Source of the DNA: Spirogloea muscicola
Lineage: Eukaryota > Streptophyta > Zygnematophyceae > Spirogloeales > Spirogloeaceae
Assembly (NCBI GenBank): GCA_009602725.1
Contig: WELB01000036.1
Coordinates: 148,845-185,766 of the forward strand
Direction of reading: 5' to 3'
DNA length: 36,922 nt
The notes under the pieces were generated by a model, which had not been told where the DNA came from, ran no database searches, and worked only from the letters and a program-made list of their open reading frames with translations. Position numbers and translations under genes: made by a program. Within the stretch, counting starts at the first letter, position 1. The number at the start of each line of letters is the position of its first letter. This document shows, in pieces, positions 2,698 through 36,922 of the stretch.

Positions 2698-2813
2698 GAG
2701 TGATCCGTAGCCGCTTTGTTTCTTTGTGTGCTTGTTTTTCTTAGCGCTTCCCCTGGCCCCCTTCTCGTCCTTTGTTGATTTTTTTGGGCTGGCTTTTCCA
2801 GCCCCTATTCTCA
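2698..2813 (+). repeat. Hairpin 3'-unit interrupted by the intact element
   Basis: This copy of the unit seen at 1590-1710 carries the hairpin GGGCTGG-CTTTT-CCAGCCC (2786-2804) and CTATTCTCAATG. The expected continuation GGGCGAGCAC is replaced after CAATG by the N-terminal region of the full-length retrotransposon. The unit thus marks the 5' junction of that insertion. Confidence 0.65.
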
Positions 2814-16140: not shown

Positions 16141-16141
16141 G

Positions 16142-19100
16142 TTACTGCTTCTGAGATTTGAATTCTTGAGCTGAAGAATACATAGTCATGGTTGTGGGCT
16201 TCCCCACAAGGTTAAAGCTTGTATAAGAGCATGGGCACCCACCTTCAAGCGGCACAACATTGCCATCGCCACCGGGCTCCTCATTCGGTAGCGCTAAGGC
16301 CGCCAGCCGGCACAGGAGCTCGATACCATGGGGCAGGACGATGGTGGCGTGCGGCCACAGCAGCCTCTCCTCTGTCTCCGACCTTGGCGTCCAGCACCGC
16401 GGACTGCTAGCCAAGCTCCCCCAATTGGGCCCAACCGAACAAGCAATGACCAGCTGATTGAGGAGCAGCCGGCTTGCAGCTGCTGACATCTGGTGGCGGT
16501 CACTAGCGCCAGCAGATAGCTGCTGCCGCTTTGACGATCTCCCTGCCTCAGAGGGCAGCTCCTTTAGGCACCGCCCAAGTGCGTCAGCAAGCTCTGCCTC
16601 CCTCTGCAGGATGTCCTCAAAGCCTGGGCTGCTGGCGGCTGCAGCCCTCACATCACTCAACACCTCCCCTAACTCCAACATCACGGCCAGTGGTAATTCC
16701 TGCGGCACGTTAGACCCATGACTGGCACGCGACTGGTCATCGTTGCCGTCAGCAGTTGTCGTTTCCCTTGTGATTGACCGGATGCTGCAGTGAATGCGCC
16801 GCTGGAGGTCAGCCTTTGCATGGGGTTTTCCCATTGTCGCATCCCTTGGCTCTGGGACTACTCCATCCAGCCTCTGCAGCTCGGCCTCCATGTTTGCTGG
16901 CGAGTAGCCGAGCCGATGCCAGTGCTGCGCAAGGTTGCTGTAGTCCTTCGGAAGCGCCACGGTGCAGCTGCGGAGCGATGGCGGCAGCTGCTCCAGATGA
17001 AGCTGGACAACAAGCTCCCGCCTGTTGCAGCAAAGCAATCATCATCACCTGGTGCGGACCCCCAGAGTTCCATACTTTAACACAGACCAAGAAGACATGT
17101 ATCACATCACATTCTATGCCTGCATCTGCCACTATCAGTGACAGTAATTAGTGCAGATAGCGAACTTGGTATTGCTGTACATGCCACTACGACAGGCAGC
17201 TCACAATGTCACGGGCTCCTTCACATCCTCAAGGACTTGCTGAAGTCTAGCCTCAAGCTTTGAGGCTGCGTCAACCCTGTTGTGGCATGATCAAGGTGGC
17301 CTGCCTTCCTTTTCCTCGCAAGTGCGCTCGGTGGCAGATGGTGGTCAGCGCATGACCTGTCTTCATGTCTATATCATAAGTCAAGGTCACATTCCAATTT
17401 CGTACAGCACGTGATGCTATTGAAGTGTCACATGGAAGCAATACAAACGGTGCAGGTAAACTGGACTGATTTCAGCTGATACAATCCACAACACTTGGAA
17501 ACTCCTGCTGTGGCCTTGTGGGAAACGATGACGCCCGTGCAAGATCTGAGGATCACAAACCACAGCAGCCGCGCATCTTAGGTTGAATGCCAATTCGAAT
17601 TCGAGAGCCATTGAGCTGCATCAAGCATGTATCAACTTTTGACAGGACGCCAGCTTCTCAAACAGCACAGATGGCTGCGCTGCTATTCGTAGGCGCATAC
17701 CTTGCAAAGCTTCCGTCACTTTGTCCATCTTCAATTGTGCACAAGCATCAATGCAGTCAGTCTGCTTGCTGAGACCGCGCCGAATTTTATGGGCCTCCAG
17801 GGCTGCAACAAACTCCTGGGTCACCAGTCGGCCACGACTGGATGAAAGTCTCAAGATGGCAACACTGCTGGCACTGGGCGCAAGCGCAACTCCAGCCAGT
17901 CGCTGCTTCGCCATGGACTCCGGCCCCTCCAGGACTTGGTTGCCAGGTGCCTCCAACAATCTGTCCACCGTGGAAGTAGGGCTTGCAATCAGGACGGCAG
18001 GTCCCTTCTGTAAATGTTTGGACGATACGTCCACAGCGCCTTCTGGCCTGATTGAGGTGTACGGGAAGCAGCTGACTCTTCCAGAGACAAGCGAAGCTGC
18101 AACAATCATATAACCTGTGCAAGCAAAGAACATGGATTGATAAGCAAAACGGAGAGTTGTGACTTAAGCCTTCACCTCCTCTAGAAAGGCTATTGCTTGG
18201 TCAAGTGCTCAGTAAGGTCTACTAAGCAACACCAGTTGCAGATGCAATGCTGCGTCTCATGCATGGCTTCCACAATTGGCTGAACCATACAGACTACTTT
18301 CACAAAAATTCAGCCATCTCCAGAAGAAAATTGGTGCAGCTTTGGGTTGACATGAATATAGATCTTTCTTGCAATGAGCAGATGTGGGGTAACGGTCTAG
18401 GCTCATGGACCACGTTTGTCTCTAAGAGGCTTCCGACCGGGATTGCCACATCGCCACACTCGTCAGTATATTTCAGAAGCAGGGCATTACTGTGGCGGCC
18501 ATGACAGCAGCTCGCTGCCAATTCGTCTTGCTAGCAGTGAGCATCTTTGTGTAACATCGGCATGACGGAGGATGAAAAGAAGTTGGGGTGGCTCGTCCAT
18601 GAAGTGCTCCCACTAGGTACCATGCCACAGACTCAATGCCTCAGATCAAGGAAAGCAATGACGTTCATTGAAAGCGTCCCAATCAGCTTCTGCATTTGAG
18701 CGTTCAGCTCTGGAATTGCTATTGCCAAATTAATAATAAACCTTTGACTACAAGGACGTGCAGAACTTGATAAGGTAAGGAGGTTGGTGAAGGTGAGGAG
18801 TTTTGGAAGACCTGGAGCATGGCTGCTTGGGGCTGCCGAACGTCGAAGAGCATCACGTGCGAGGCGTCTGCTACAGCAAAGTGGAAGCCACTGCCGCCAA
18901 CGAGGGGACTGGACGTCGCCAGGGACCAGAGTCTTTCTCGCGGCGACCACGACAGGCTGAAAGCATGGAGCCTGGCAGCGTCCACGAGGCACCGGATTGA
19001 CGAGCCTGCTTGGCAACACGAGGCAGGGTGATTGACAGATTGCTGGTTAAGTATCAGCGAGCTGAAGGTGCAGATGCCATCCTGTCAAGACACTGCGGAG

Positions 19101-22023
19101 CAGACTCCTGGACAGTAAGTACGCTATTCAGCACACATGTAACATTGACAAGCTGGAGCTTTGTACACAAGGGTTTGGAGTTTAGCGTTAGCGACTATGT
19201 TTTAGGGTTTGTGTTTCAGGGGTTCGGGCTAGGGCTAGGGTTAGGTTTAGGTTTAAGCTGCAAGCTGTGGAATCTGTGTGTACCTCCAAGGCCATCCTTC
19301 ACATTGACCAGGTACACATGGCGCTGTGACGCCACGAGCAGCGTCTTGGAGTGCCCGCCGTACTCGCAGTGCCACCAGCCTTGTGCTGCAGGCAAGAGCC
19401 CTGACGCATTCTCCACCGATGCAGCCACACCCGCCTGGCTGCCAATGCACATGTCCTCCGCTGAAGCCACGGGAATGTGTGCAGCCTCAAGCAGGCCGGC
19501 GCTTGTTCCCCGACGAAATCTTAGGAGGTGCAATGAGCCATCATCAAGCACAAAAGCTGTCTCTGTGCCCGGGAAGTACGGATTCCACGCCACCTGCATG
19601 CACGTGTCGGAAATGTGTTAGAGAATAGACTGTCTTGTGTCAAGACATGGGTTTAATTTTGTACTACTGTTCACACTGTGAACATTGAACATACAACTGT
19701 GAACTAAGATCATGGTGCACTCTGACATAAGGAACACGTAAGCCAGCTACACAAATGATCAAGTGACAGCTTGCCTGATAACTTCTACTTAAAAGGACGT
19801 ATGCCTGAAAACCTCTACTCCACTGACGCACTAAGCATTATGTCAAGTACAGGTGCTTCCAGATCTTTGCCATTTTACCAACTTAATTCTCACATCCCTA
19901 CACAAGAACTTAGTGGTAGCACCTCCAGATCAGCATCAACAGAGTCTGCAGGACACTTCCTTCTGATTGGCAATCTCAACTGCAGGGTGCTCTCACTTTG
20001 TTGTGAAGGAGTTACCAAGAACCCTGACATGCTTAAGCACGTCCTTCCTTACAGACCTGGACCTTATCCAACCAACCAAATATCAAACAGATGACAAACT
20101 TCAGCCAGGATAGTCCTGCTTTTCCAACATAGCAGGTTCAATTTGGCAGGTTCACAGCCACCAGTCTACTGTGATCGAACCTGGGGTGTGGTCAGAATGC
20201 AGAATAAGGGTCCAAGTATCTATGCATCTTGACTTGCCTTCCAACACAAATATTGTGTTGCAAGACATTGAGGTAACAGGCAAAGGGTACTGGATCTAGC
20301 AGGTCGGAGATTGCATTGACCAATACTATCTCCAACACGTACTTGACCACGTACTTGGTGACACTTATTGGACTTGGAACATGACATCCTAGGCCATTTC
20401 AGACTCCCATTCAACAACCAAGTGTTCAGCAAAGCACAGAAAGCACACTCTGCATCCAAGATGACTACATCCAGACAGTGCATAAGCAGTTGACGCTGAT
20501 CAAGAGGTACCACTACTTAAGCCCAGGTCGGAAATACAGATGCTGACCCTGCTGCCAATACATGTAGGAGCATGAGATCTGAGCCAATCCTTTCGAGCCT
20601 AATAAAGAACTTCATGGATGGGAAGCTTACATGGCATGGGCACCTCGAAAACCTCGCATCCACAATCAGCTCAATCTCGCTGCCAGCTTCCTGTTGGAGG
20701 TGGCAACATAACCGCCGTAGCCCAACTGAGAAGTTGGGCTGCAACTTTGGCAAATACTAGCTAATGGAGGTGGAGAGGCAGGGGAAGAGAGAAGAGACTA
20801 GGGAGGTGATTTGCTCTAGCAACTCTGCTGACCAAGGTGCAGGATGGTGCTCGAGTGCTCTTGATGGACTGAGCAGGCTGATGGACCAGAAAAGCTCAAG
20901 AACCGTGGGAGTGGCCCTTATGCGGAGCTATCCAAGGCACTTGCAGCTGACAGATGCTAGGAGTATGCATCCTATATGCAGGATGCAAAGAATCTACTCT
21001 ACTCACCTTTGGTGACAATCGGAATACCTTAATGGTTGACAACGTCCGGGCAGCAATGAGAGTCGTCGTAAGGCTTGCTGACTTGCCATCACCTGCTACA
21101 GCGGCGAGCTTCTCGACCGAGCAATGCATCCGCAGAGTACAGTCAGAGGTGCTGCCAACTCGCAGCAACTATCTCAAGGCAAGCGACAGTAAATGTGAGG
21201 CAGCAGGAATCATCTACAACAATTGGGCCAAACTGCATCCCGATGGTCCTGGTGAAGGGCGTGCCACGGCTAAACGCACTTTGACAATGTATCCAAGAGC
21301 GTTACATTTACTTATCAGCAAGTGTGGCCATGCTAGTGTACTGGTAATAGACATTAATCAGATATGTGTCGTCACTGTCATTGGCCATGTGCTGGTGTGC
21401 TGCAAGAGCTGTGCAAGGATTAGGGTTTCAAGTTTAGGGTGTGGGGGTTTAGGAATTAGAGTATTCTGTTTAGTTATTAAGGGTTAAGGGTTCAGTGTTT
21501 AGGATCTAGGGTTCAGTGCATATCCACCTGCTTGATTGGCTGGTCCAGCGGCCCCGTGAGCGCATAGTGGCCAGGCGGCGACGTGCGAAGTGGCTGCACC
21601 ACGCGCTGGCTGCCGCTTGCAGTTTTTGCCGACCATACTGGTGGCGTCCTTAGAAGAGGCGGCTCTGCTGCCTCTCCAACAGAGTCGCCGCTGGACTGCA
21701 CCACCCCTCCTTGATGAACCGCTGACTCCTTCCTGCCCTCGCTGCCGTTGTCACTGCTGCTGCCGCTTCCCTCGCCACTCTCCTCCACGTCCTCCTCTCC
21801 GCCGTCGTCACTGTCACCATCTCCTCCATTGAGCTCCCTGCTGCTCTCCCCCTCCTTCATCGCCACTGCCGCGACCTCCACCGTTTTTGTGTCCACATTG
21901 GCATTCTCGTGCTGCACCGCCCGCCAGTTCCCGCCATCGTCCCTCCAGCAGCGGGCCCCCCCGAGCTGCGCGCCGTTGCGCCCCGTGGGGAAGTACACGT
22001 GGAGGTCCCCGCTGGACGCCTGC
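16142..22023 (-). CDS. Multi-exon gene, possible TAF1C-like propeller protein (approximate model)
   Basis: Minus-strand segments with protein-like character and plausible splice sites occur in order. One from about 22023 begins ASSGDLHVYFPTGRNG and then has an Asp/Glu/Ser-rich stretch. Next come one near 21270-21180 (RGTPFTRTIGMQFGPIVVDD), one near 21110-21010, and 19593-19284 (VAWNPYFPGTETAFVLDDGS, HSKTLLVASQRHVYLVNVK). They are followed by ~19010-18812 (SWSPRERLWSLATSS, FHFAVADASHVMLFDVRQP), 18114-17701 (GYMIVAASLVSG) and ~17030-16142 (LVVQLHLEQLPPSLRS). The W-x-P, LLVAS...VYLVN and FAVADASHVMLFDVRQP patterns recall the beta-propeller of the RNA polymerase I selectivity factor subunit TAF1C. 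That is family-level inference only. Exon ends are approximate, and some predicted phases do not match, so the gene may be partly decayed. It could be another WD-like protein. Confidence 0.35.
19170..19258 (+). repeat. Degenerate telomere-like (TTTAGGG) tract
   Basis: GGGTTTGGAGTTTAGCG, TTTTAGGGTTTGTG, GGGCTAGGGCTAGGGTTAGG and TTTAGGTTTAAG form a degenerate array. It lies just beyond the donor end of the minus-strand exon ending at 19284, that is, inside an intron of the proposed minus-strand gene. Confidence 0.7.
19621..20950. other. Region without a supported gene
   Basis: About 1.3 kb between the exon at 19593-19284 and the next upstream candidate exon near 21.0 kb. Base composition is lower in GC than its surroundings and open frames are short. 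It is best read as a long intron of the minus-strand gene, or as sequence inserted into it. Nothing else is recognised. Confidence 0.4.
21419..21517 (+). repeat. Degenerate telomere-like tract
   Basis: TTAGGGTTTCAAGTTTAGGG, GGGGGTTTAGGAATTAG, AAGGGTTAAGGGTTCAG and TTTAGGATCTAGGGTTCAG give a ~100-base run of decayed TTTAGGG motifs between two exons of the proposed minus-strand gene. Confidence 0.7.
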
Positions 22024-22263
22024 AGAGAGGTGACTTGACACGCCGGCTCAGCCGCCGTCTAAGCATGGCCCCATGGCAGGGGCTCACTGCCAATGTGGGT
22101 CCCTACTCTGCTCAGACTTCTCAGTAGCTATCACCATGAAGGCTAGAAGGGACTGGGGCCTCAGGAGCTTCAGGAGCTTCAGAAGCTCCATGTCCTAGTG
22201 CAATTACTCAGGGGTTGCGATAATAGCATACGTACAGCTTAATCCAAGCTGTGAACCAGAATG

Positions 22264-22297
22264 CAGAATGGATGAACCAGATGGTTCATCCATTCTG
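22264..22297. repeat. Perfect 16-bp-arm palindrome
   Basis: CAGAATGGATGAACCA, then GA, then the exact complement TGGTTCATCCATTCTG. With a two-base centre, this 34-base structure would extrude as a cruciform or tight hairpin. It lies between the proposed minus-strand exons and an unassigned upstream block. Confidence 0.9.
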
Positions 22298-22320
22298 ACT
22301 TACACTAGGTTCTGACACCT

Positions 22321-22790
22321 TCATGACTTTGCCTGATCCATCCTACCATCCGATCCTGACTTTGATATGTGATCCAGCCTCATGCTCCAGTAGATGTACT
22401 CCTCAAATGCTACATCGAGCGGCAAACACGACAGGCTGAAGATGAAGCAACGCCATGCTGCTGCTGCGGGTAGTGCGGCGAAGAGGAGCACCTGGATGGA
22501 CTGCAGGCAGCAGCCGGCCAGGGGGTCACCGTCCAGCGCGGAGCGGGTGCGCAGCGCCGCGTCCTCCGCCACCAGGCCCAGCAGGAGGTGCAGCGGGACG
22601 TTCACCCCCGGGAAGCTCGCCAGCACGCTCTCGGCTACCTGCGAGCGCAGCAGGCGAAGCAGGGTCTAGGCTTATGCATAAGGTACCAAATGCACGGATA
22701 AGGGTAAGGGCTTGATTCTCGAGGGTTCAAGTACAGGTCGGGATCCACAGCTTCGAGGAATTTCCCAACGTAACGGACGCGACGGGCTGG
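22321..22790 (-). CDS. Unassigned minus-strand exons
   Basis: Minus-strand frames here read RRVRYVGKFLEAVDPDLYL (about 22790-22730), then TLLRLLRSQVAESVLASFPG through VPLHLLLGLVAEDAALRTRS (about 22670-22540), then LQSIQVLLFAALPAAAAW and a FEEYIYW segment (22500-22380). The composition is protein-like, with a possible hydrophobic segment, and candidate splice signals exist (CATAAGCCTAG acceptor, ATCCAG-GTGCTC donor). Phases do not join cleanly. They could be 5' exons of the minus-strand gene downstream or a separate gene. I do not recognise the family. Confidence 0.25.
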
Positions 22791-22799
22791 GCGCCGCGG

Positions 22800-24008
22800 A
22801 AGCCGGGACGTCCGGGCCGGGAGGACCTGTAGGGGCTCACCAGGCGCGGGTCGCCCTGTGGGGGCCCGGCGCTCGGCGGGCGCAGGTCCGCGCCGGTGAC
22901 GAGCAGCTGCACGGGGGGCGCGGCCGGCGCCAGGCTCGGCACCGGCGTGGCCGCCATGCCATCTGCGGGCGCAGCGGGGCTGAAGTCGCGGCTCTCGGCA
23001 GCCTCGCTCCCACGTCGGCAACGGGCCGGCGGCGATGGGCCTGAAGAGGCCGCGGAAGAGGCGGCGGCGGGGGCGGCGGAATTGGCGGCGGTGAGAGCAG
23101 CAGTAGCGGCGACGGCGGCGGAAAAGGCGCCGGCGAGAGCGGCGGTAGTGGAGGCGGCGGAGGCGGCAATTTGAGAGCACAGCAACCTAACCCTAAAACG
23201 AGTCCAAGTGGCAAGGAGGCCGCGCCACGTGGCGACACTGCCACGTGGTGACGCGTGCTCGACGCGAACGCGGACGTGAGCATTGTCACGGCAGCGGACG
23301 CAGACGTGACAAGTCGGATCAGGTTGAAAATTTAAATACACTTCTGGTGTTGTTGTTAGCGTCCAACCTGATTACATCTGGGCAAGGATATCGTAGGAGG
23401 CAGTCGACGGCCCCAAACGTGTCATCGAAAGCCGCCGCCGGGTCACGTCCTCGTCGGCGGGGGCGTCGGCCTTGACGTCAGCGCCCTCCCCCCCCCCCCG
23501 NTCCCTCCCCGCCACACGCCCAAAGCCCTTTCCAGCCCCTCGCCTCCTGCAGCCCGTCTCCCGGCGCCGCCAGCCAGCAATCCGCCGGCTTCCTTCCGAG
23601 CTTCCTGCCCCACCATCCGCCTCTGGCAGGAGGTAACAGTATTCCGCTCTTATTACATTTTTTTGATGTTACATGGGTTGCACTTGGGAAAGTAATACCT
23701 ACAGCAGCTCGCCGAAATTCTGACTGCCTGTGCTGTTGGCTGAGCAGGCAGGCCTTGCTCCGTGGACCTCCGCTCCCCCTCGTTGTTTCCCAGCCCCTCT
23801 CCAGAAGCAGCAATGCTTTGCCCGTCACTCGGAGTGGACAAGTAGCCCTGCGCAGCTGCCCGCACCTGGCTTTGGTCTCCCACCTCTCCCTCACCTCTGC
23901 TCTTGCACAAAGCGCTCCGCCATTTTCAGGCAGCCAGGCCAGCTCGCTCTTCCACCCTCCTGGAAAACATTTCCTCCCACCACTTCTAGCTGTGGGCAGC
24001 ACGCAGCC
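22800..24008. promoter_or_regulatory. Intergenic region, possible divergent promoter
   Basis: This stretch separates minus-strand exons from the start of the plus-strand fusion gene. It contains a GGCGGC-rich block (23030-23170), a CCACGTGG palindrome near 23240, and a C-rich run with one N (about 23490-23502). A pyrimidine-rich segment then runs up to the ATG. Frames across it are low-complexity Ala/Pro/Arg and not credible. The plus-strand frame is open upstream of 24009 but has no in-frame ATG, so an N-terminal targeting extension cannot be shown. Confidence 0.4.
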
Positions 24009-27000
24009 ATGGGTGGCGATAAGCGCAAGACGTCGGACGTGTTCGTCAAGGCCCTAGAGAACGAGCGAATCGAGTGAGTCGGGGACGCAATCACACTGCT
24101 CCTGCTCGCCACTCTCGTTGCCCACAAATGCCTGCTGCTCAGACTTCTGCAGGCGGCATGCTGAGCTGCTCCATGCCGCGTGAAAACATTGGTGCAGGTG
24201 CATTTTTGGCATACCCGGCGAGGAGAACATGGACCTTCTGGACTCGCTGCAGAGCTCGACCATCAAGCTGATTGTGACGCGGCACGAGCAGGCGGCGGGC
24301 TTCATGGCCGCCACCGTCGGCCGCCTGACAGGCCAGTGTGGCGTCTGCCTCTCCACGCTCGGCCCTGGCGCGACCAACTTCACGACCGCCGCTGCTTATG
24401 CTCAGCTCGCCGGCTTCCCAATGGTCGGCCGCCCACCTCAACTCGAGCACCTTGCCGGCTGCCGCGCCAAGCTGAGACGCCCACATTGCATCAGTGCGGC
24501 GACGGCTCTCCTCGTCGCCCCGACACCCCTGACGAGGTCTCGGCTGGTGGGACGAGCGCAGATGATGATCACGGGTCAGAAGCCAATACGGAAGAGCAAG
24601 CAGGGCTCATTTCAGATCGTAGATATTGTTGAGAATCTGCGACCCATCACCAAGGTGCGAGGTGCCACCGCCCTCTTAACTACGCCTGACGGGTAGTTAG
24701 TGTTCAATCTACAATGTCTAGACAAACAAGCTATTTGCATCTCCCATTTGTGCACCTCAGAGAACCTGGATTGGCATAAGTGACAGTGGGCCTGAATCGA
24801 AGCCGGCGACCGGCCTGCTTCTCCTGCTGCAGTATACGCGGCAGATTGCTGACGGCGACCTGGTGCCGTCGCTCGTACGAGAGGCGGCGCGGCTGTCCGT
24901 GGAGGAGCGGCCTGGGGCGGTGCACCTGGAGCTCCCAGAGGACATTGCAAGCACGCTCACCGACGCCGAGCTCTTTCCGGTGCACCAGGTCCGGCGACCT
25001 GTCGCCGAGGAGAAGGCCATTGCTAAGGCTGTCGCGATGATCGAGGCCGCCCAGCGCCCGCTGCTCCTCATTGGCGCCGGCGCCAACCGCAAACTCACCC
25101 AGAAGATGTATGTTGGTGCAGCCATACTGCAGCTTAAGCTCTAAGGCTTCCGTTGGCTCCGCAGCCAAGCTCAACTTTTCAATGCATAATCTGCATTGAA
25201 GAAAGGTCACTGTCACAGCAGGTTACGAGGCGATAAGCTCAGAGTGAAATTGCTAACAAGTAGTACTCACCGTCAAGTCTTTCTGATGGGGGTATGGTGT
25301 TCCCACTCTGCGATAATGTTAAGCTTCTTGCTGCTATTAGCTGGACACTAAGCAGTGCCCGAGTGGGACGCGCTCGTGGCCTTAAGGCTGTCACGAAATG
25401 GGCGCTCACTTTTGCTGCGGTGGGTGCTGATGGCGGCAGGCTGAGGCAATTCGTGGACCAGCTCGGCGTTCCCTTTGTCACGACGCAGATGGGCAAGGGC
25501 GTCGTCCCAGGTGATGCCTCGCTGACCGCTTCTCTGTCCCACATAAGCTGCCACGTCCAACTCAAGCATCAAGAAAGCCCGCGATCCTGCAGCGTGCACA
25601 AAGACCAAGAGTTCCCGAGTATGTGAGCTGAAGGGTCCTGGTGGACGGCACCGACTGAGCGTGCGCAGATTCGCACCCGCTGTGCCTTGGCTGCTGCGCG
25701 CTGTCCGCCAACGACTTCCCGCACCTGTGCTGCGAGACCGCGGATCTCATCATCAACATTGGCCACGACGTCGTTGAGAAGCCGCCCTTCATAATGAGGC
25801 AATGGCCACCCTCTCAAGCCAGCACACCTCCCTCTGGAAGTGAGGAGGTTGCTAGTTTCGTGAGTGTAGTGTGCCGTGCACAGAAAGCCCAATGTGTAGC
25901 CTGCAGGAAGGAGGTCCAGCAGGAGCTAATTGCCTGATATATATGAGGAAGATGTTCAATTGTCTTCCAGTTCATCTTGTGACAACCACCGTTGTGATAT
26001 GATGGGATCTTCAGGCACAATGAGCCGCCGATGGTGATTCACGTGAACTTCTATAGCGCCAAGGTAGACAATGTCTACTTCCCGCAGCTGGAGGTTGTTG
26101 GTGACATCGCCAACGCCGTCTGGCAGCTTACGAATCGCCTGGAGCCCCAGAGCCACTGGGACCATTCCTTCATGATGGGCGTGAGTGGACCTGGACATCT
26201 CAGAACTCTATTCACGCTAGTGAATAGAGTTCTGAGATTGTTGTCAAGCTGCTGCCTGCCTCCCCTTTGCCCCAAACAGCCTTGCAGTGCTATGCTTCTA
26301 CCTACGATGGGTGCAGGTTTGAAGAATCAAGCTTAGACTCCAATATGCAGCTGCAAGCTTAGCTTTTGACCTTGGAACTCTGAAAATCACCTTTTTTGAG
26401 ACAAACGCGAAGGTGAAGAAGGACTTTGAGGACTCACTTCGCAAGAACGTTGACAATCCGGCCTTTCCCCTCTCCCCACAGCGTGTTGTGGCCGACGTGA
26501 GGTGCTTATCGTCACAGCATTGTATCCTGACTTACCTAGCTTTAACCTCTCCACTGTATCTCCTGGTCCTACTGCGAGTCCACGTCCACGTTGGTCCTGA
26601 AGACAACACGCGTGTGCTGATTGTTCCCACCACATCAACCTGCGCAGGAGAGCACTCCCAGATGACGGTGTCGCCTGTCTGGACAACGGTAAGCTGGTGT
26701 TACCTCTCCTTCTGTCGGTGTGTGACTCTAAGAGCAGCAATGGCTTGCTGGCTTATTCTATACCAGAGGGGTTTGTCCTTTGAGCACTGCATGTGTCATT
26801 TTGTCTTTATCAGGAACTACTAGAGATCCTTGTCGCTGGAGCAGGCAGCAGGCTGGTCTGTGCTGATCCACCCTTTCATCTTGCTCTCTCTAATGCAGGC
26901 ATGTACAAAATCTACTTTGCTCGCTGCTACAAGGTTGGTGGGATATGAAACACAAGGCTTCTGGATTAGTGCTGCTCGCTCCACATGTTACCTACAGAAG

Positions 27001-30000
27001 AGCTCGACGAAGACGAGACAGGCTTTGACTTAGGATGTCTCAAATTTCTGCAATGCCTTCTATAGTAACTCTGCTGGTCACTAAAGTTATGGGCTTCATG
27101 ACTTGATCCACTGTACTGAGGAAGCAAGGAGGTGCTTGACAGGCCTATCAACCAAACACTCTTCTGCTTGACAACGCTCTCGCCACAATGGGCGCCGGTC
27201 TGCCCTCGGCAATGGCTGTCTCGCTGCTCTACCCAGAGAAGAAAGTGGTGGCTGTATGCGGCGACGGAGGTTTCATGATGAATTCGCAGGTGCGCATGCA
27301 TTGTACGAGGCCGAAGCCTCGTAAGCTTCTTCGAAGGGCCTTGTAAGCTTCCTCAAGCTTCAGAATGTGGAAGGATGGTGGAGCCAGGGACAGCCACAAG
27401 AGGAATAATGAGATGACCAATCTACTTTGACTACTGTTCTTCGAGTAATCATGTTTCTAATTCACGTGGTCATAGATTTCTTGTCCAAAACTAGTTCATG
27501 TCACCTCATCGTGAATTCTGACATTTACCCCTGCTTAACAGGAGCTGGAGACTGCGGTCAGGATCAAGCTCAACATGACTGTAATTGTCATCAACGACAA
27601 TGGCTACGGCATGATCAAGTGGAAGCAGCATGCGGCGGGGTTCAGCAAGTGCGGCCCCCTTCAACTTGGATATAATTGTGCCCTTGTGGTGCGCGGCGCG
27701 GCAGGCTAAGCCGGGTCCATGTGAAGATTGGCATGTCCTTCTTTTCGGGCCATAATTAAATATTTCAATGTGGCGTCCTCGACCACTCTAATGGTTTCCC
27801 TAGTCAGCCTGCCATTGAACTTTGTGAGCTGACTGCCCTCTCCTTGCATTGGTGCAATGGTGATTGGTAGATTCGGTTTGGAACTGGACAACCCCGACTT
27901 TGTCGCGTATGCCAACAGGTGGGCCTCTGTCTCCACACCTCACCCAGGAATAGCAATCAACATGATTGATCTACATGACCTCGAAATATGTCCTGCTGGC
28001 CGGCTGTTTTCGGTGTCTGACTATGGCGAGGGCACTGTGAGCCACCAGCTACGGAGCCAAGGGCTTCCGTGTGACCAAGGCAGACGAGTTCCTCGAGATC
28101 CTGCACCAGTGCCTCGACGTCTTACCTGGCGTCAAGCTCATTGAGGTCAGTCTCGGACTTGGCTCGTCTACTCGTTGTGTTATGTTCTGCTCTTGCTGTG
28201 TACTGTGCCTGCCTGCATACGAATGTGTGCTTAAGCTCAGCGCTGAGCTGCTGCAAGCAGGTCCCGGTTGACTACACTAAGGACAATGAGGTGCTTGACA
28301 AGGAGCTGCCTGGGCTCGTCCGCAAGGACCACATGCAGGCTAACGTGAGATCTAGTCATCAATCTGGCTGCCATTGCCAAAACCCCGTGTGAAGAATGGC
28401 TATGATCACACTTGTTATCACTAATACTGACTTGATCTCTTTGGTGAGACCTTCACAGCATGTCTTATCATGGCTGCCAACGGCGGTGTCATGTGCAGGT
28501 CATCAGCGGTAAGCTCAAGGAGGTGGCAGCTGTGCCAGCCATTTGCGGCTCGACGCTCACCTCCGTCCCAACACGCAAGGACGACGAGGCGGACATCAAC
28601 ACGGGCGAGAAGTCTGCGGACATCCCCCACCCTGGCAGGACCCCTTCACTGACAGACAACACTGGCCCCGCGAAGGCTGAAGCGCCAGTCAAGGTGTCCT
28701 CGGCGGAGTTCGGCATGCTCCAATCTGCAAGCAAGAAAGGGGCCTCTGAAGGGGCCTCTGAGCACCAGAGTGCAGCTCCGCCAAGGGCAGAAGCGAGCAC
28801 CTCAGAGTCGGAGGTCACCACATACCCGTTCTACATCGCTAATGTCGCCAAGCAGCCCAACACAGACCTGGAGGTCACTAACAAGTACACTGGTGAGTCA
28901 GCGCTATCTATGACTTTCCTGTTCGTTATGCTCTAAAGGTACCTACTTTCTCACACTCAGGCTCAAGACAAGCTAGCTGAGGTGTATCACATGTGTACTT
29001 GGTCTTCTCCCATACGTTCACAGCTTCACTTCTTCTGTGTGTTATCTTTGCTACTAGAGGTGAAATTGGTGTCAAGCTTTTCTGCTTCATGTAGCCACAC
29101 CCATGAGCATCCGTATACGGTGGAACAGGCAAGGTGGGCGCGAGGTGCGCCCTGGCGCATGCAGCGGACATTGAGATGGCCATTGCAGCGGCAGAGCGGG
29201 CTGCGCCTGCAATGGCAGCCATGGCCAGCTACGAGCGCAAGGCGGTCTGTGAGATGGTTGTGAGGGAAGTGAAGGCGAGGTCGGAGGAGTTTGCCAAGGC
29301 CCTCTGCATGGAGGCTGGAAAGCCCATCAGGTAGCCCGCTGCCCTTGCCGGCCCTGCTCTCAGCAGGTTCTGTTGGGTTGACGCTTCGAGGTACTTGGTG
29401 CTCATTATTCTGAAGATTGCATAAAGCCTTACTGGAAAGAGTGGACCATTAAACTGAGAATCACAAATCTACCAAGTGATAATGTCATTGGCTACTAATT
29501 GTGCGCTTCGTTCATGATTTATAGGGACTCACGAGGAGAGGTGCAGAGGCTCATTGACACCTTCCAGATTGCTGCAGAAGAGAGCGTCCGTATGTAAGCA
29601 CCAGTCCTTGTTGCCCATGGCCATTGATACAGTCCAGCTATCCTAGCTTGATACTGTAGATTAGCCGTGCCCAGTCCAAGTTGTGTCCAATCAAGGCCTA
29701 AGGCGGTAGTTGTGCATTTAAGATGTCACTCCTCACCGTCAGCAAATAGGAATACTTCTGTGACCAGCAAATGGGAATACTTCTGTGACATGCTGACCTT
29801 CTTGCTGCATCCCGGAGAAATGACATATGGATCTTACACTACTCCTGCTTCTGCTGAGGTGAAGGTATGGCGAGTATGCCCCCATAGACATTTCAGAGAG
29901 AGCAAAAGGCTACCAGTCCCTGGTAAGCTGCTATTTTTGGTGCATGCCTTAAGAGCGTGCAGGAAAAAGCACAAGATTTACCAAGTTGTGTGACTGAAGC

Positions 30001-32822
30001 CATGGTGCGATGCTGTTAGACCTGATAATTGTGCCATCCTGATTGCTGGTGGCGTGATTGGGTGGAGCCCTGCACATTTTGCTGACAGGTGAGAAAGTTT
30101 CCGATAGGCCCCATCAGCATGGTCAGCCCGTTCAACTTCCCCCTCAATCTGGTAAGCCCTTGGGCTCTTCACCAAGCGAGCTGCAAGGATCCTCCTGTCT
30201 CATGTGGCATTGAGTCGATTGCAGGCAATTAAAAGTGCTACACTGTGAGACTGTCACACGCAGCTGCAATGCTCTGACTCCTGATCATCTGCTTTTCAGG
30301 CTGCTCACAAAATTGCCCCAGCGCTTGCTGTCGGCTGCCCGTTCGTGATGAAGCCTGCCAGGTGTGGGCTGCCACCTTCATGCAGGCTTGGGGCTTGATT
30401 ACAGTGACCTGATCTTATTGACCATCAGCTGAACGCCATCATCCGTGAGATGATTCCTTATCCTCGTTGCCATTTTGCCGCTTTGCCGCTGGCTTGCAGC
30501 CGTACGCCCATCGGGGCACTTCTTCTCGGAGAGATCCTGTCGCGTGCGAACCTGCCGGAAGGAGCATTCTCCATCCTCCCATGCGCCAGAGATGGAGCTG
30601 ATCTCTTCACAACGGACGATAGATTCAAGCTCCTCTCCTTCACGGGGTCCCCATCTGTGTGTTCCGTCTCTCGTTAGCTGCTCTTCTCTCTCCTCTGCAC
30701 TTGCATTGCCCTGGCTGTACTGCTGCCCAGGTTCTGCAACCCCCCTGGAGAGACTCAGTGCCAAGTCTATGCTGATACTTACCTTAATTGGACTCACCTA
30801 ACAGCTTGATGGGCTTGTCTGCAACAGGTTGGGTGGGCTATGAAGGCTCGAGCTGGAAAGAAAAAAGTGGTGCTGGAGCTGGGCGGCAATGCTGCCTGCA
30901 TTGTTGATGTGAGCATTGCTTCCTACTTTGTTGCGCCTTAGCCATCCTCAGTGATTATGTCACCCAAGCAATTTCACATAGCAGAGATGACTGCTTATGA
31001 GGGCTCAGACTCACTCTGCCTGTATTATTAACAGGTACTACTCTTGCTTTCTGCTGTCACTTACTAACATACTTATGCATTGTTCTGCTGGTGTGACAGG
31101 AGCTAGTGCCTGACATTGGCGGTGTAATTGCACTCATCGTGCACGGTGGTTTCTACCAGAGTGGGCAGTCGTGCATCAGCGTGCAGCGGATATACATAAA
31201 AAAGGCATGATAGACTATCGCTACTTTGACTGTATCTCGTGCAAATTGCCTTGTCAGTCTCACGATCTTGCAATGTTGCCAGCCGAAAGCAGAAAGTGGA
31301 GATGCATCAGGCAATGAGGCAATAGGGCGTCAGTGAGTGTGATAGTTGACACCCACTCAGTTACCAAAAAGAGCCCATATTCCTGCCATTGAGATCCTCC
31401 TCATTGCTCTGCCTATGCACAGAACCTTTATGAAACGGTCAAAGGGGCGCTGACTGAGGCAGTCTCGCAGCTCAAAGAGGTACGACAAAGTGATTGTTCT
31501 TTCACTTGCTGAAAGTGGATGCAAGCCACTGCTCTGAAATGTCGGGTAACACGATGGTGTCAACACATCACTCTCTCAGAAATGTTCATACTCAAAAGTA
31601 GACTACCACGAGGCCCTTCTGAGATTGCAGAGTTCTTGTCTCAGGGAGACCCACTAGAGGAGGAGACATTCATAGGCCCAATAATTGCCGAGTCAGAGGC
31701 CAAGCGCATCGAGCAGTGGGTGGATCACGCAGTTGAGAATGGGGCGCGGTAACCACCACCCCCTAGCAACTCTTGCCAGAACAAGGAGGCTTTACCTCTC
31801 CTATTTGTGCCTCATGCATTGTGCCATCTCTGCCAACAACACATCTGTAGCTCAGCCGTTTGCCACCGGTTTCCCACAACAGAGTCCTGATAGGTGGCAA
31901 ACGCGACGGCGTCTTCTACAAGGCAACCGTCATGGAGAACGTGAGGACTGACATGGAGGTGAGCACTCGTCCGTCCTTGAAGGTAGTGCATGCTTCAAAA
32001 GCACGAAATCTTCAGGGATCAGCATGCAGCCGTTGTGAAGTACACTTCACAACCCTGAATGGATTAGAGAGTGCTCTGAATCTCCACAGAGTGACTGTCC
32101 TATCTCGCTGGCCAACTCAAAGAGCTGATGCAGACACAGCCTTGCATTGTATTTGCGCAGGTCCTTTGCGAGGAGGTATTTGGGCCCGTGGTGGTGCTCA
32201 TACCTTATGACGACTTCACAACTACAATCAACGATGTCAATGCCTCAAAGTTTGGGCTCCAGGTAATTGATGTGCCGTCTTGGCAATTGCAAAGTGGGCC
32301 AGTTCTAAGTGCGGTCTCCTCGTCCTTATGGCCATGCTGAAGGAAGCTTTAAGGATGTGTACTATTTATCAGCGGGGAAAGTTCGTACTCAAGAAGGAAC
32401 AATTCAAAGTAGAGGCCCTGTGGCAGCAACTTTCTAGTCTCTTCATCCTGTTAACAGCCAAGCTCCGGCGAGCACTGCAGGCTGGAGTATTCAACAGGGA
32501 CCTGAACAAGGCCTTCTATGCATTTGAGCACCTTGATGTTGGCGGCGTGTGCATCAACGACGTGCCAAGCATGCGCATTGACTCGCAAGTGAGCTTTGGT
32601 GACTCGAATAATTGTGCTACAGTGTCTGCATCCTGCCAACGCTGCAAACACGTATCGGGCTCCACATGTCTGCAGAGCTTGATGCCCTTGTGTTGCTCTT
32701 GATGGCAGCCATACGGCGGCGTGAAAGACTCGGGGCTGGGCCGCGAGGGCCTGCGGTACGCCATGGAGGACATGACGGAGACCCGCGTCATGCTCATGCG
32801 CAATGTGGGTCAGATTATGTGA
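24009..32822 (+). CDS. Fusion of acetolactate-synthase-like ThDP enzyme and aldehyde dehydrogenase (30 exons)
   Basis: The 1149-aa product combines a ThDP-dependent 2-oxoacid enzyme (~1-562), a polar linker (~563-667) and a full ALDH (~668-1149). Exons: 24009-24073, 24198-24423, 24562-24654, 24833-25107, 25440-25510, 25669-25798, 26015-26180, 26401-26501, 26648-26688, 26899-26933, 27143-27289, 27542-27648, 27871-27918, 28049-28145, 28261-28344, 28499-28892, 29129-29330, 29525-29593, 29865-29922, 30089-30151, 30300-30361, 30500-30656, 30828-30908, 31100-31204, 31423-31479, 31633-31748, 31883-31958, 32161-32262, 32481-32588, 32709-32822. All phases join (3450 nt including TGA) and follow family alignment. 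Two introns have GC donors. The start has a strong GCCATGG context. No signal or transit peptide is visible, so cytosol is the default inference. Single-gene fusion is inferred from continuous splicing; transcript evidence would settle it. Confidence 0.85.
25799..26014 (+). other. GC-AG intron (intron 6 of the fusion gene)
   Basis: The exon ends ...TTCATAATGAG and the intron starts GCAATGG. The acceptor is GGGATCTTCAG before GCACAATGAGCC. Joining gives [14 protein letters not shown] in frame with the family alignment. No GT donor nearby gives the correct phase. Confidence 0.7.
26197..26238. repeat. Perfect 19-bp-arm hairpin inside intron 7
   Basis: ATCTCAGAACTCTATTCAC, loop GCTA, then the exact complement GTGAATAGAGTTCTGAGAT. 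It begins 17 bases after the GTGAGT donor at 26181. In RNA it would form a stable stem next to the 5' splice site. Confidence 0.9.
28499..28815 (+). other. Inter-domain linker of the fusion protein
   Basis: The first ~106 codons of exon 16 are rich in Ser, Ala, Glu, Lys and Pro. They include a duplicated GGGGCCTCTGA unit (GASEGASE) near 28738-28762. Linker and the first ALDH strand ([20 protein letters not shown]) share one exon, with no stop, promoter or ATG between them. This is the strongest sequence argument that the two enzymes form one polypeptide. Confidence 0.75.
29741..29788 (+). repeat. Two-copy tandem repeat in intron 18
   Basis: AGCAAATAGGAATACTTCTG and AGCAAATGGGAATACTTCTG follow each other, each ending in TGAC. 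It is a local duplication with one difference and no coding effect. Confidence 0.8.
31205..31422 (+). other. GC-AG intron (intron 24 of the fusion gene)
   Basis: The exon ends ...ATACATAAAAAAG and the intron starts GCATGATAG. The acceptor is CCTATGCACAG before AACCTTTATG. Joining gives [16 protein letters not shown], matching ALDH spacing after the catalytic Cys. It is the second GC donor among 29 introns. Confidence 0.65.
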
Positions 32823-33760
32823 GACCATGCGCTTATTTACTGCACATGTTACGAGCTCGAGGGCATGCGCAAGCTCAAGCTGCAACAGAGGCAGACATCG
32901 TTGCTTTACTCCTGAGTGAAGCTTAGATCTGGGTCGATTTCCATTGGGTTTGAGAAGTAAACCTGCAAGTACAGAATGTAGATTTGAGGTGCAAGTGATG
33001 CCATTTTAGCTGCTCGCTGCTTAGCTCACAGCCATGTAAAATCGTCCTTGCTTAGAGGCAGGCACTTATGGGCGCAAGATGACTGGATTCCCGTCCTTAT
33101 CCGCAACTTGCCCTTGTTTGCTCAGCCACGCCTCCTATCACATGTCGCCCCTTTGGGCTCGACAGCTCTGCTCGTCATTTGGTTTTCCAAATATGTCCAT
33201 GGATTGACGAGGTGTTAAATGGAGTGTACCGCAATCATTGACGCATGCTACACTGATTTTAAGTATAGCGCAAGGTCAGCGAGGCACATCAATGAAACAC
33301 CAGAGCCTTGCACCACACAGCGGTCGACATCTATGCATGTCCAAAGGCTGGACTTGAGGCGCGCACAGGCTGCACCAACCGCCATTGCTTGCTACTAAGC
33401 AAGCGGGCGATCATAGGAAGCCGCAGATGGCTTGTCATGTGGACTGCAAGTTGTAGAAGATGATCTGTCAGTCCTCCAAAGAATTTGCTAAGCTAAAGTT
33501 TTCCGAATTTGCAGTACAAATGCGGCAGCTAATGGTGGTCTAAGCAGGTGCAATGAGCAGTTGCCAGCAGCCAGTCAGCTGTTGGTAGTGGTGGCAGAGG
33601 TGGCGGCGGATTTTGGGAGGTGGAGCTCTACGACCCTACAGAGCTGGTTCCTGATATTCATGGAGACGATTCACACCGCCAAGGCCAGAAGGGGCGCATA
33701 ATGCCCAAGCAAAGAACAACAAATAAGTTGTGGATAAGCGCCGGGCTACGATGGCACGTG
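32823..33760. other. 3' UTR and convergent intergenic region
   Basis: No gene is seen. The plus-strand fusion gene and the minus-strand DUF3419 gene end towards each other here. TGTAA, the usual chlorophyte polyadenylation signal, occurs at 33035-33039, about 215 bases after the stop. That is a plausible but unproven site. Confidence 0.4.
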
Positions 33761-36517
33761 CTAGCGCTTGACACCGACCATGACAGCCTCGCGACGGCGC
33801 CAGTACATGCATGTGCGCTCCGCCTCAGCAACGGCGGCAAGCAGCGCCTCATCAACATGGAGAGACCCCTCAAATGCTGCACGCTGCCGACCAACCATGC
33901 AGCGGTGCAGAAGAACGCCTGGAAAGATAGAGAGGGGGAGGAGGGAGGTGCAAAGGAGTGGTCATTGACGCTGTAGCAAGACCAGACCGGCGCTCAGGCA
34001 GTTTGCACATCGGGCATGCGGCCGCGAGTGCCGCGCAGCAAGTACCTTCATCGGCGAGGCAGTTGGCTGTGGCCTGGACGAAGGTGCAGAAGTCGTCGTC
34101 GCTCATCCAATCGCCAATGTTGGACAGTGTGATGAGGTCAAAGGGGGCACCCTCCTGCGACCCCCGCACTGGCAGTGTGAGAGGGCAGAAGTAAAGGAAG
34201 AGGGAGGGCACTGATGGCATTCACAAGCGCCATCAAGCTGTGACTGTCGCATCGCCGTTGGCATGTGCTTGCACCTCGCGGCACAGGCACTTCGCCACAG
34301 CGACGGCATTGCCAACGTGGGCAGTCAGGTGCACACAGACGGCGCCGCTGCTGGGCTCCTCTGCCACTGCCGTGGCGCGTAGAGCTGCGGCGCCCTCTTT
34401 GGTGAGGTATAGTGGGTAACTCCTACAGGCTCCACCCTTAGGCAGGCCGCCTGCGAAGAAGCGGTGCATGGCGGCGTTGGCACCGTTGGCCAGCCTGCTA
34501 GCCAGCTGTGCCATCAGGCCCTGTGCACACGCCGCACTGCCGATACCTGTCAGCGTTGAAAGCCATGCAAGCTCCAACTGGCAGGAATCATGCCGGTCGC
34601 AGGTCACGCGGAGTTGAAGTTGAAGAGCTTAGAAGAACTTGACCACAGAACGACCTCCTATTCCTCCAACTTCATCTTCAATCAATTTAGTTGCAGTATG
34701 TAACTAAGCTTGAAGCTTCTTTGGTGGTGGGAGGAGGGGGTTGGAGGGTGAGGGTCGACTGTCACCAATCGAGGGTGCTCGAAATGCCGGGAGATGGCCA
34801 CTCAAAACTCCCCACGCACCATGGCTTTCCATCTGCAGGCAACGGCTTGACAGCCGCTGCAGACACATCAGCACGCCATGCGGTGGCGACAGCACATAAG
34901 TAACTTGGGCTGCAGTTAACTGCGGACCTGGAAGGCGTCTGCAATGGCGGCCTGGGCAGGCAGCCGCCAAGTACAGCGCGCAGAATCTCATCAGACGCGC
35001 CCGTGGCGCCAGGCACCACGGCATCGCGCTCCAGGTGTAGCAGTGTGCCGACGTCGACTCCACGCACCGCCAGATGCCGGCGCACACCAGCGCTGAGCCG
35101 CTCCAACGCACCACTCGCTGCTGCGCCATGTGACACCTCCCCAGCCAGCCGCGCATCCCAATATGCCTGCGCTCACGCTTCAGTGGAGCCGGCGCTCAGT
35201 CTCTGACCGAGTAGCAAGCTGAAACGAAGTTGCTGTCATGGTCAAACTTTAACATGGGAGTCAAGCCACTCCAAGTCAAAGGCAAGATCATGTCAATGTC
35301 GAGTTAAGTCACGGTTGTTGTTGAGGGGTCTAAGGACTGTGTTGTGGCGCCCACCTGTTCGATGATGGGCAGCGCCTAGCGGACGGCAGCGACATACGTG
35401 GCACGTCGAGCAATGCCGGCTGCCGCCCCATGGTCGCCATCGAGGCCGAGGAAAGAGACGCGCCGCCAAGTGGTGCCTCCGGCGCTGCAGCGCGCTTGAG
35501 GTGAAGCAGGTGCGTCTGCGCCGCATTCACGTCCACTGCGGCCAGTTGGGCTATGGGCGCGCCAGGCAGGCAGCAGAGTGACAGCGCGCCGTCGCCACCG
35601 CTCACCACGACCAACAGGCGCAGGCGCCGCCCCCCTGGCCCTCGTCTGGGTGAGCGAGCACCGCGAAAGATCAGCGAGAAATTTGACTTTCAAGGGCAAG
35701 TGAGGATTGCACAGGAAGAAGAGGAAGAAGAGTGTGGAGTTGGGGGAACTGTCAGGTGCAGTCAGGCGGAGGAGGGAGGCAGGGGAAGGAAGGGGAGGGG
35801 GGGGGGGCGGCAAAGAAGGAGGATGGAGGAAAGGGCTGAGAGCAGGTGAGAGGCAGTGGAGTAAGAAGGACCCCAGCTGAAGCAAGAGCCAGAAGAAGAG
35901 AGACAGAATAGAAAGGCAGAGCGTGAGACACCTTCTTCAGGAGGAGGGGGAGAGAAAGGCTGAGGGAGAGGGAGAGAGAGAGAGGAGACAGAGAGGCAGG
36001 AAGCAGGGAGGCGATGTGAGATGGGCACGCGGAAGGAGCGAGAGACACGGGGGAAGCGCGAGCTCCCACCGTGCTCGCAAGTACTCGATGCAGGTGAGCT
36101 CTGCACGGAAGTCCTCGTTGTCGGACCCGTTGCTCAGCTCGCTCACGAGCTGCGGGGCATTGGGCTGCTCCGTGACGGGGCTCGCCATTGGCCCTGGCGC
36201 CTGCATGCAGCTGGGGCAGCCGGCCATAAGGCTGCAGAACCGGCACTCGCTGCCACCAATTTCAGCGCCGAGGCAGCCCAGAGGAGCTGGGCTGGCGAGC
36301 TGCCGTAGCGAGCTGGTGGGCCTCCCAGCCGGTGCCTTTGGCGCCAGAGCCAACTGGACCAGCTCAGGGAAGTCACTCCTGGACTTTGGCTGTCAAGAAG
36401 AGAGAGGAGATGGAGGAGAGAGGGAGGAGAGGCCAGGATGGGGAGGAGGGAGGAATGCTGGAGGCATCGACGAGGCCGCTCGGAGGTTCGGCAGAGCCTC
36501 ACCTCCCCAGCCGCCAT
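33761..36517 (-). CDS. DUF3419 / BtaA-like AdoMet-dependent transferase gene, with a frame lesion
   Basis: Seven minus-strand exons: 36517-36503 (MAAGE, Kozak GCCGCCATGG), 36389-36070 (EDFRAELTCIEYLRAR), 35645-35355 (LLVVVSGGDGALSL, AAVDVNAAQTHLLHLKRAA, FLGLDGDH, RRATYVAAVR), 35166-~34928 (AYWDARLAGE, GALERLSAGVRRHL), ~34546 to ~34277 (HRFFAGGLPKGG, YPLYLTKEGAAALRA), 34168-34046 (FDLITLSNIGDWMSDDDF) and 33918-33761 (RAAFEGSLHVDEALLAAVAE...YWRRREAVMV, stop TAG). The order ED.R-EL, AdoMet-binding SGG, D-N-AQ, FDLI-SNI and C-terminal ER-Y pattern fits DUF3419, whose BtaA/BTA1 members transfer the 3-amino-3-carboxypropyl group of AdoMet to diacylglycerol in betaine-lipid (DGTS) synthesis. Exon 3 changes frame between LKRAA and the FLGLDG segment and then has an in-frame TAG (35376-35378). 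It is therefore either a pseudogene or an assembly error. Some middle exon ends are approximate. Confidence 0.6.
35646..36069 (-). other. Strongly pyrimidine-rich intron 2 of the DUF3419 gene
   Basis: On the minus strand the ~424-base intron is almost entirely C/T, with runs such as CTCTCTCTCTCC and a G(11)/C(11) homopolymer near 35797-35807. On the plus strand it is a GGA/GAG purine tract. The flanking exon phases (2 plus 1 nt) agree across it. Such mirror polypurine runs can form triplex DNA and cause assembly errors. Confidence 0.6.
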
Positions 36518-36660
36518 GGCGGCCTCCCTGCCCCTGCGGCGGTGGGAAACGGAGGCGCAGCCCCGCCGCCTGAGCCGCCGCCGCTCCCTCCGCCGTCGCC
36601 GCCGCTCGTCTCGTCGCCGCGGCGCTCCTACCCAGCGCGGCCCTCCTTTGCCTAGGCTGT
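36518..36660. other. CCG-rich 5' flank of the DUF3419 gene
   Basis: A CCGCCGCC-rich stretch immediately upstream of the proposed minus-strand start codon, suitable for a 5' UTR or promoter. Frames are poly-Arg/Ala and not credible genes. Confidence 0.45.
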
Positions 36661-36663
36661 AGT

Positions 36664-36745
36664 TCCGCAACTACAGCTATGGACACCCTCTGGATGCACC
36701 TGGCTGGCTATCACAGCGGCTCTTCTAACATCAGCAGCCGCAGTC
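36664..36745 (+). repeat. Isolated hairpin unit
   Basis: TGGATGCACCTGGCTGGC, TATCACAGC (36702-36716) and ACATCAGCAGCCGC match the 6902-6955, 2421-2475 and 12587-12645 units. This copy is over 20 kb from the retroelement cluster and just upstream of the DUF3419 gene. The hairpin units are thus mobile beyond the nest. Confidence 0.6.
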
Positions 36746-36922
36746 CTCCCACTCCACCCTCCTCCTCTCCTCCTCCTCCTCCTCCCCTCGAGATTACCCC
36801 TCCCCCCTCCCTCTCCTCCTCCTCCTCCGGCCTCCTGGCTTCGCCACCCTCTCGCGCCGGTCGCGGCGGCTGCGCCGCCTCGCCGCGCCGAGCGCGTCCA
36901 GCGGCCACCCCGCTGCCCCGCC
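36746..36922. repeat. CTCCTC microsatellite and GC-rich end
   Basis: CTCCTCCTC tracts at 36766-36830 are followed by CGCCG-rich sequence to the window end. No gene is supported. Confidence 0.75.

Follow-up and report, generated by a model that had tools for sequence, protein, structure and literature searches.

What does a streptophyte alga do with an enzyme that appears to join a ThDP-dependent 2-oxoacid module to an aldehyde dehydrogenase (ALDH) in one polypeptide? The gene in question lies in Spirogloea muscicola, in an assembly of 153,112,186 bases in 471 contigs, within a stretch of 36,922 nucleotides of contig WELB01000036.1 (here C36). We refer to this whole stretch as the window. A first reading of the window, made from the sequence alone, had proposed a single fusion gene and left the oxoacid open among pyruvate, 2-oxoglutarate and glyoxylate.

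We rebuilt the gene manually and checked the result by script. The gene runs from ATG to TGA on the forward strand, and the frame is kept through 30 exons and 29 introns, of which 27 are GT-AG and two (introns 6 and 24) are GC-AG (Table 1). Two more copies, on contigs C3 and C61 of the same assembly, have the same 30 exons and are fully open. The rebuild and the copies thus bear out the proposed 30-exon fusion with frame across every junction, and also the exon (exon 16) that was said to hold the linker together with the beginning of the ALDH module. However, the coding length given by the sequence-only reading, 3450 bases, was 24 nt too high: the corrected coding sequence is 3426 nt, which gives a protein of 1141 amino acids. 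A start of exon 8 at position 26401 was rejected, because it adds 12 nt and breaks the frame of the C61 copy. With this start, GG precedes the exon in C3 and a one-base gap falls in C61; neither occurs with a start at 26413, which is preceded by AG in all three copies. The first model, with exon 8 from 26401, was 3438 nt long and gave the residue numbers Glu52, Asn468, Glu914 and Cys949. After exon 7 all numbers drop by 4, so that the GDG motif is at 437-439 and the later residues become Asn464, Glu910 and Cys945. Both active sites look intact, as had been claimed, in the three-copy comparison and in residue checks. From the upstream stop at 23721 to position 24009 no ATG is in frame, and a further upstream exon is possible.

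Table 1. Features of the fusion gene, in window positions; amino acid (aa) numbers follow the corrected model.
Feature	Positions	Strand	Content	Basis or remarks
Whole gene	24009..32822	+	30 exons, 1141 aa	conservation drops outside CDS (little upstream in C61)
ThDP module	24009..28344	+	exons 1-15, aa 1-558	NF006187 826 bits; PF02776, PF00205, PF02775
Exon 1	24009..24073	+		three-copy comparison
Exon 2	24198..24423	+	Glu52 (RHEQ)	three-copy comparison
Exon 3	24562..24654	+		three-copy comparison
Exon 4	24833..25107	+		three-copy comparison
Exon 5	25440..25510	+		three-copy comparison
Exon 6	25669..25798	+	followed by GC-AG intron	rebuild, copy alignment
Exon 7	26015..26180	+		three-copy comparison
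Exon 8	26413..26501	+	start corrected	three-copy comparison
Exon 9	26648..26688	+		three-copy comparison
Exon 10	26899..26933	+	Lys389	three-copy comparison, residue check
Exon 11	27143..27289	+	Ala411, GDG 437-439	three-copy comparison, residue check
Exon 12	27542..27648	+	Asn464, Asp465, Lys474	three-copy comparison, residue check
Exon 13	27871..27918	+		three-copy comparison
Exon 14	28049..28145	+		three-copy comparison
Exon 15	28261..28344	+	end of ThDP module	three-copy comparison
Exon 16	28499..28892	+	linker (aa 559 to ~662), first ALDH module residues	dN/dS 0.20-0.26; 12-nt in-frame indel
ALDH21-type module	29129..32822	+	exons 17-30	PF00171 452 bits; 62% identity to moss ALDH21 5mz5
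Exon 17	29129..29330	+		three-copy comparison
Exon 18	29525..29593	+	Arg765 (moss R121)	three-copy comparison, residue check
Exon 19	29865..29922	+		three-copy comparison
Exon 20	30089..30151	+		three-copy comparison
Exon 21	30300..30361	+		three-copy comparison
Exon 22	30500..30656	+	Arg871 (moss R228)	three-copy comparison, residue check
Exon 23	30828..30908	+	Glu910	three-copy comparison
Exon 24	31100..31204	+	Tyr939, catalytic Cys945; followed by GC-AG intron	three-copy comparison, residue check
Exon 25	31423..31479	+		three-copy comparison
Exon 26	31645..31748	+		three-copy comparison
Exon 27	31883..31958	+		three-copy comparison
Exon 28	32161..32262	+		three-copy comparison
Exon 29	32481..32588	+	Arg1100 (moss R457)	three-copy comparison, residue check
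Exon 30	32709..32822	+	ends with stop codon	rebuild, three-copy comparison

The Pfam domains TPP_enzyme N, M and C, followed by Aldedh, match the protein in this order with E-values of 4e-29 to 2e-135. (Pfam and NCBIfam scores were obtained on the model that preceded the correction of exon 8.) The ThDP module belongs with NCBIfam family NF006187 (PRK08322), for which its score of 826 bits is over the curated cut-off of 509. We know of no assay of any member of this family. On a ThDP tree built with a quick method, the query has no firm place, and its end branch is 0.94.

Clues to the substrate come from the ThDP pocket. The 2-oxoglutarate decarboxylase of Microcystis is described as forming an aldehyde from 2-oxoglutarate only, among six oxoacids, and its substrate contacts, as obtained by docking, include Ala408, Lys386 and Lys471 (PMC10418658). 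In the fusion these residues are Ala411, Lys389 and Lys474. Across 79 prokaryote ThDP rows (79 of 80 loci, leaving out L022, whose frame was not recovered), the Ala411 position holds Ala in 78 and Gly in one, and the positions of Lys389 and Lys474 hold Lys in every row. A wider mapping, made by motifs and offsets from the published residue list of MaKGD/OgdA without the cyanobacterial sequence and with Gln254 falling outside it, finds nine positions (Glu50, Lys386, Ala408, Met410, Asp435, Asp462, Tyr465, Lys471 and Tyr531) all kept in the fusion. Four others differ, with V382, A384, H385 and L467 of MaKGD replaced by Asn385, Met387, Tyr388 and Met470; Asn385 and Met470 are invariant in the 79 prokaryote rows. 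The ThDP family thus appears to resemble 2-oxoglutarate decarboxylase at some pocket positions, a likeness that falls short of showing orthology.

The ALDH module (452 bits with PF00171) has moss ALDH21 as its best PDB match (5mz5; 62% identity over 459 residues, 649 bits). Among the 25 NCBIfam families shown, it reaches no cut-off: the best match, lactaldehyde dehydrogenase NF040648, scores 422 bits under a cut-off of 650, and the succinic semialdehyde dehydrogenase (SSADH) model TIGR01780 scores 314 bits under a cut-off of 646. We take residues R121, Y296 and R457 of moss ALDH21 to hold succinate and R228 to contact NADP, a list that reportedly comes from Kopecna 2017. All four are kept in the fusion, as R765, Y939, R1100 and R871, respectively. 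Moss ALDH21 itself is described as a succinic semialdehyde dehydrogenase (PMC7823795). In a midpoint-rooted ALDH tree of 61 rows, the bacterial ALDH21-type sequences (43 rows, from 42 loci and 5kf0) group together (100/100); the query adjoins this group without entering it, and moss branches off one step beyond (94/83), so that the tree gives no single clade of query and moss. A search of viral contigs with the ALDH module alone gave no match.

The two modules have counterparts in prokaryotes. A scan with the ThDP module gave 593 matching stretches, the best 80 of which were kept as loci (59-66% identity). Sixty of these best 80 have an ALDH gene downstream in the same orientation, and in 58 of the 80 it is within 500 nt; 17 have no ALDH gene downstream despite at least 1.8 kb at hand, and three are cut off. 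Therefore, the fusion keeps the bacterial gene order, ThDP and then ALDH. In none of the 60 loci that have both genes does an open frame run through the two. In the flanks, which extend as far as 5 kb on either side, ALDH is the only regular partner of the prokaryote ThDP gene: no other cluster of neighboring frames occurs in more than eight of the 80 loci, and the eight-locus cluster is led by an antisense frame. The ThDP gene is also carried by 166 plasmid records.

The 60 partners are not all of one kind. Forty-two are ALDH21-type (53-62% identity to the fusion's ALDH module), and 15 are at 29-39% identity; of these 15, 13 are whole and make up one clade (100/99), and two are cut short. This second kind (L003, L014, L018 and 10 more loci; 33-39% identical to the fusion's module) occurs in Bacteroidota, Nitrosomonas, Desulfobulbaceae and others. 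The best PDB matches of its L003 member are ALDH21-type chains at 266-281 bits, with no close characterized relative in the PDB. The remaining three partners (L061, L073 and L079; 29-30% identity) form one clade (100/100), and the L061 protein, the one member of this third kind that was searched, scores 540 bits against 4it9, a succinate-semialdehyde dehydrogenase of solved structure. On the quickly built ThDP tree, the partner kinds do not form one clade each. Residues were counted in 58 of the 60 partners, leaving out L005 and L046, which are cut at a contig end and of unsure kind. The equivalents of moss R121, Y296 and R457, the three succinate-binding residues, are the same in 42 of 42 ALDH21-type, 13 of 13 second-type and 0 of 3 third-type partners; that of R228 is kept in 41 of 42, 3 of 13 and 0 of 3, respectively.

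Taken together, the evidence tips slightly toward a bifunctional enzyme that would convert 2-oxoglutarate through succinic semialdehyde to succinate in one polypeptide. The ThDP module would decarboxylate 2-oxoglutarate to succinic semialdehyde, the ALDH21-type module would oxidize this product to succinate, probably with NADP+, and the aldehyde may be passed directly between the two sites. The protein is a eukaryotic fusion of two genes that are adjacent in many bacteria. The self-contained oxoacid-to-acid enzyme envisaged in the sequence-only reading is in this respect supported indirectly, by ALDH as the sole recurrent neighbor and by conservation of the ALDH21 succinate residues, and among the oxoacids left open there the evidence favors 2-oxoglutarate. 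At least three kinds of ALDH partner are present, and two of them resemble succinic semialdehyde dehydrogenases. Against this choice, the third kind, the closest to an SSADH of solved structure, does not have the succinate residues of ALDH21 (three of three cases), and the two carboxylate-binding Arg residues would also suit other acid aldehydes. The four differing pocket residues and the 17 loci with no downstream ALDH also speak against it. The enzyme is likely cytosolic, because it has no N-terminal extension of note relative to the bacterial proteins (only MGGDKRK stands in front).

It is possible, although we consider it unlikely, that the ThDP module acts on a different oxoacid, dicarboxylic or longer (2-oxoadipate or oxaloacetate, for example), which it decarboxylates, and that the ALDH module oxidizes the corresponding semialdehyde. 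Any acid that bears a second carboxylate would fit the two Lys residues of the ThDP pocket and the two Arg residues of the ALDH pocket, the same gene pairing and residue evidence fits, and the second ALDH kind (13 whole rows) lacks a close characterized PDB relative. However, the resemblance of two partner kinds to succinic semialdehyde dehydrogenases argues for 2-oxoglutarate.

Less probable still is that the ThDP module works as a genuine acetolactate synthase, which condenses two pyruvate molecules, and that the fused ALDH acts on something unrelated. The name of NF006187 in NCBIfam is "acetolactate synthase large subunit", and the best PDB match of the module, 13bb, is also named acetolactate synthase. 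Yet the module scores far under the cut-offs of both the AlsS model TIGR02418 (393 versus 551 bits) and the biosynthetic acetolactate synthase model TIGR00118 (342 versus 538 bits). In AlsS of B. subtilis, Q424 and Q487 are described as important in positioning the second pyruvate, although enzymes with Q424S or Q487S still condense pyruvate (PMC9469723). In our alignment these glutamines correspond to Ala411 and Lys474 of the fusion, and the replacements recur in its relatives, as counted above, which argues against an acetolactate synthase. Because the Ser variants of AlsS are still active, these positions tune rather than decide the reaction. In addition, distant ThDP-family matches elsewhere in the genome (C4, C7, C1 and C3; 30-40% identity) could serve branched-chain synthesis, and a conserved ALDH neighbor would be unexplained if the module were a free carboligase.

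The C3 and C61 copies bear on whether the gene encodes a single protein. In both, the ALDH module follows the ThDP module, and 29 of 29 intron positions and all splice dinucleotides of the gene are kept, both GC donors included. Identity of these copies to the window is 96% in exons and 86-89% in introns. The proteins are 1141, 1137 and 1137 amino acids long, and the single indel among them is 12 nt, in frame and in the linker. By dN/dS (Nei-Gojobori, our own script, three copies), the whole protein is at 0.065-0.084, the ThDP module at 0.043-0.054, the ALDH module at 0.048-0.102 and the linker, which has about 100 residues, at 0.20-0.26. Both modules, and also the linker, are under purifying selection. 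Three open copies with low dN/dS therefore imply a single reading frame through the two modules and the linker, maintained by selection. Upstream of the coding sequence, identity to C3 drops clearly (78-80% versus 97% in exon 1), and that to C61 changes little (93-98% versus 100%); downstream, identity is 91% to C3 and 83% to C61, versus 98% and 97%, respectively, inside. Separate genes in all close relatives had been named as an observation that would speak against a fusion. This is the case in the prokaryotes seen (60 loci), but not in the C3 and C61 copies, both of which are fused. Although it comes from DNA and not from RNA, the evidence argues strongly for one gene encoding one fused protein, and we infer a single transcript. 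Two adjacent genes with separate transcripts, the ThDP gene ending after exon 15 and the ALDH gene starting in intron 15 or exon 16, are very improbable: exon 16 does hold an ATG (Met631, in the linker) and exon 15 read into the intron meets a stop, but intron 15 keeps its GTGAGA donor and its AG acceptor in all three copies and, over its 154 nt, holds no TGTAA or AATAAA, and the linker, most of it upstream of the Met631 ATG, is coding by its in-frame 12-nt indel and its dN/dS.

The surroundings of the gene are likewise present three times. Synteny among C36, C3 and C61 is found on both sides (window 14759-23736 and 33393-36922, 75-91% identity), and with C3 and C61 it ends near 14759 (about 1 kb beyond was compared). 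The distant ThDP matches on C4, C7 and C1 and the matches to 2-oxoglutarate dehydrogenase E1 described below likewise come in threes; perhaps the genome is triplicated or represented by three haplotypes. ALDH stretches on C315 (L110) and C175 (L111) were considered as separate genes and rejected, because they are 100% identical to the window, covering the 3' part of the gene and downstream sequence. These stretches, of 4367 and 907 bases, are each joined at a single N and share an end point at window 33609, next to a CGG repeat, and are most likely assembly misjoins. Elsewhere in the window, a 1370-aa open frame at 2745-6857 has a reverse transcriptase domain (PF00078), and similar frames continue to approximately 14.7 kb. 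Long open frames on the reverse strand at approximately 15000-19700, with the same DNA on C3 and C61, are possibly exons of another gene; five of them were scanned without a Pfam match. A tRNA scan gave no lead.

If the substrate is 2-oxoglutarate, the enzyme has to be placed beside 2-oxoglutarate dehydrogenase. Matches to E1 of that complex occur at three genomic places (C97, C136 and C134), each made up of separate exons, which were scored apart, so that none reaches the whole-protein cut-off. A second, weaker E1 relative, also at three places (C156, C75 and C77), may be DHTKD1 or a Euglena-type decarboxylase. Among the 26 prokaryote carriers searched, which stand for 27 of the 80 loci less L018 and for which genome completeness is not given, E1 is over the cut-off in 14, under it in three (G003, G014 and G016) and without a match in nine. 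A simple replacement of 2-oxoglutarate dehydrogenase was rejected, given the E1 matches in the genome and in 14 of the 26 carriers; since matches to E1 are also present, the route from 2-oxoglutarate would be a side route. We tentatively suggest, as a wider reading that is plausible but doubtful, a cytosolic, NADPH-forming shunt from 2-oxoglutarate to succinate beside the mitochondrial cycle, in which the semialdehyde is handed over and of which lower-plant ALDH21 is a possible surviving half. The known eukaryotic 2-oxoglutarate decarboxylase bypass, that of Euglena, is described as mitochondrial (PMC6630311), and its decarboxylase as phylogenetically apart from acetolactate synthase kin (PMC4224347). 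Use of 2-oxoglutarate by the fusion would mean a second, non-dehydrogenase eukaryotic route to succinate, unrelated to that of Euglena, and ALDH21, which has so far been assigned to the GABA shunt, would have its substrate supplied from a further source. The fusion also ties the widespread and vaguely named PRK08322 family to an ALDH partner, and an assay of this one protein could indicate the substrate for many bacterial gene pairs.

No such fusion was found in the literature searched, which consisted of open-access papers. The parts are of known kinds and their pairing is known in bacteria; what is new is the single polypeptide, its presence in a eukaryote and the handle that it gives on PRK08322. 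The closest counterparts are the pairs of PRK08322 and ALDH21-type genes in Planctomycetota, Alteromonadaceae and others (42 of 80 loci), which have the same modules in the same order, at 59-66% identity for ThDP (80 loci) and 53-62% for ALDH (42 loci), but as separate genes with no linker. AlsS (4rjj) shares the superfamily, the catalytic Glu and the GDG motif, and differs in its Gln424 and Gln487 (Ala and Lys here), with the fusion scoring under the family cut-off. Moss or lower-plant ALDH21 (5mz5) resembles the C-terminal half in its 62% identity and the four substrate and coenzyme residues, but is a stand-alone protein. The cyanobacterial 2-oxoglutarate decarboxylase, a ThDP enzyme, likewise belongs to the acetolactate synthase superfamily and shares its operon with an SSADH, and the Ala408, Lys386 and Lys471 of the Microcystis enzyme are kept in the fusion; however, the cyanobacterial enzymes are two separate proteins, and four other pocket residues differ. 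We take 4it9 to be the SSADH of the cyanobacterial pair, and hence another kind of ALDH than that of the fusion. The Euglena bypass shares with the proposed function a eukaryotic conversion of 2-oxoglutarate to succinate via succinic semialdehyde, but it is mitochondrial, has another phylogeny and uses a separate SSADH.
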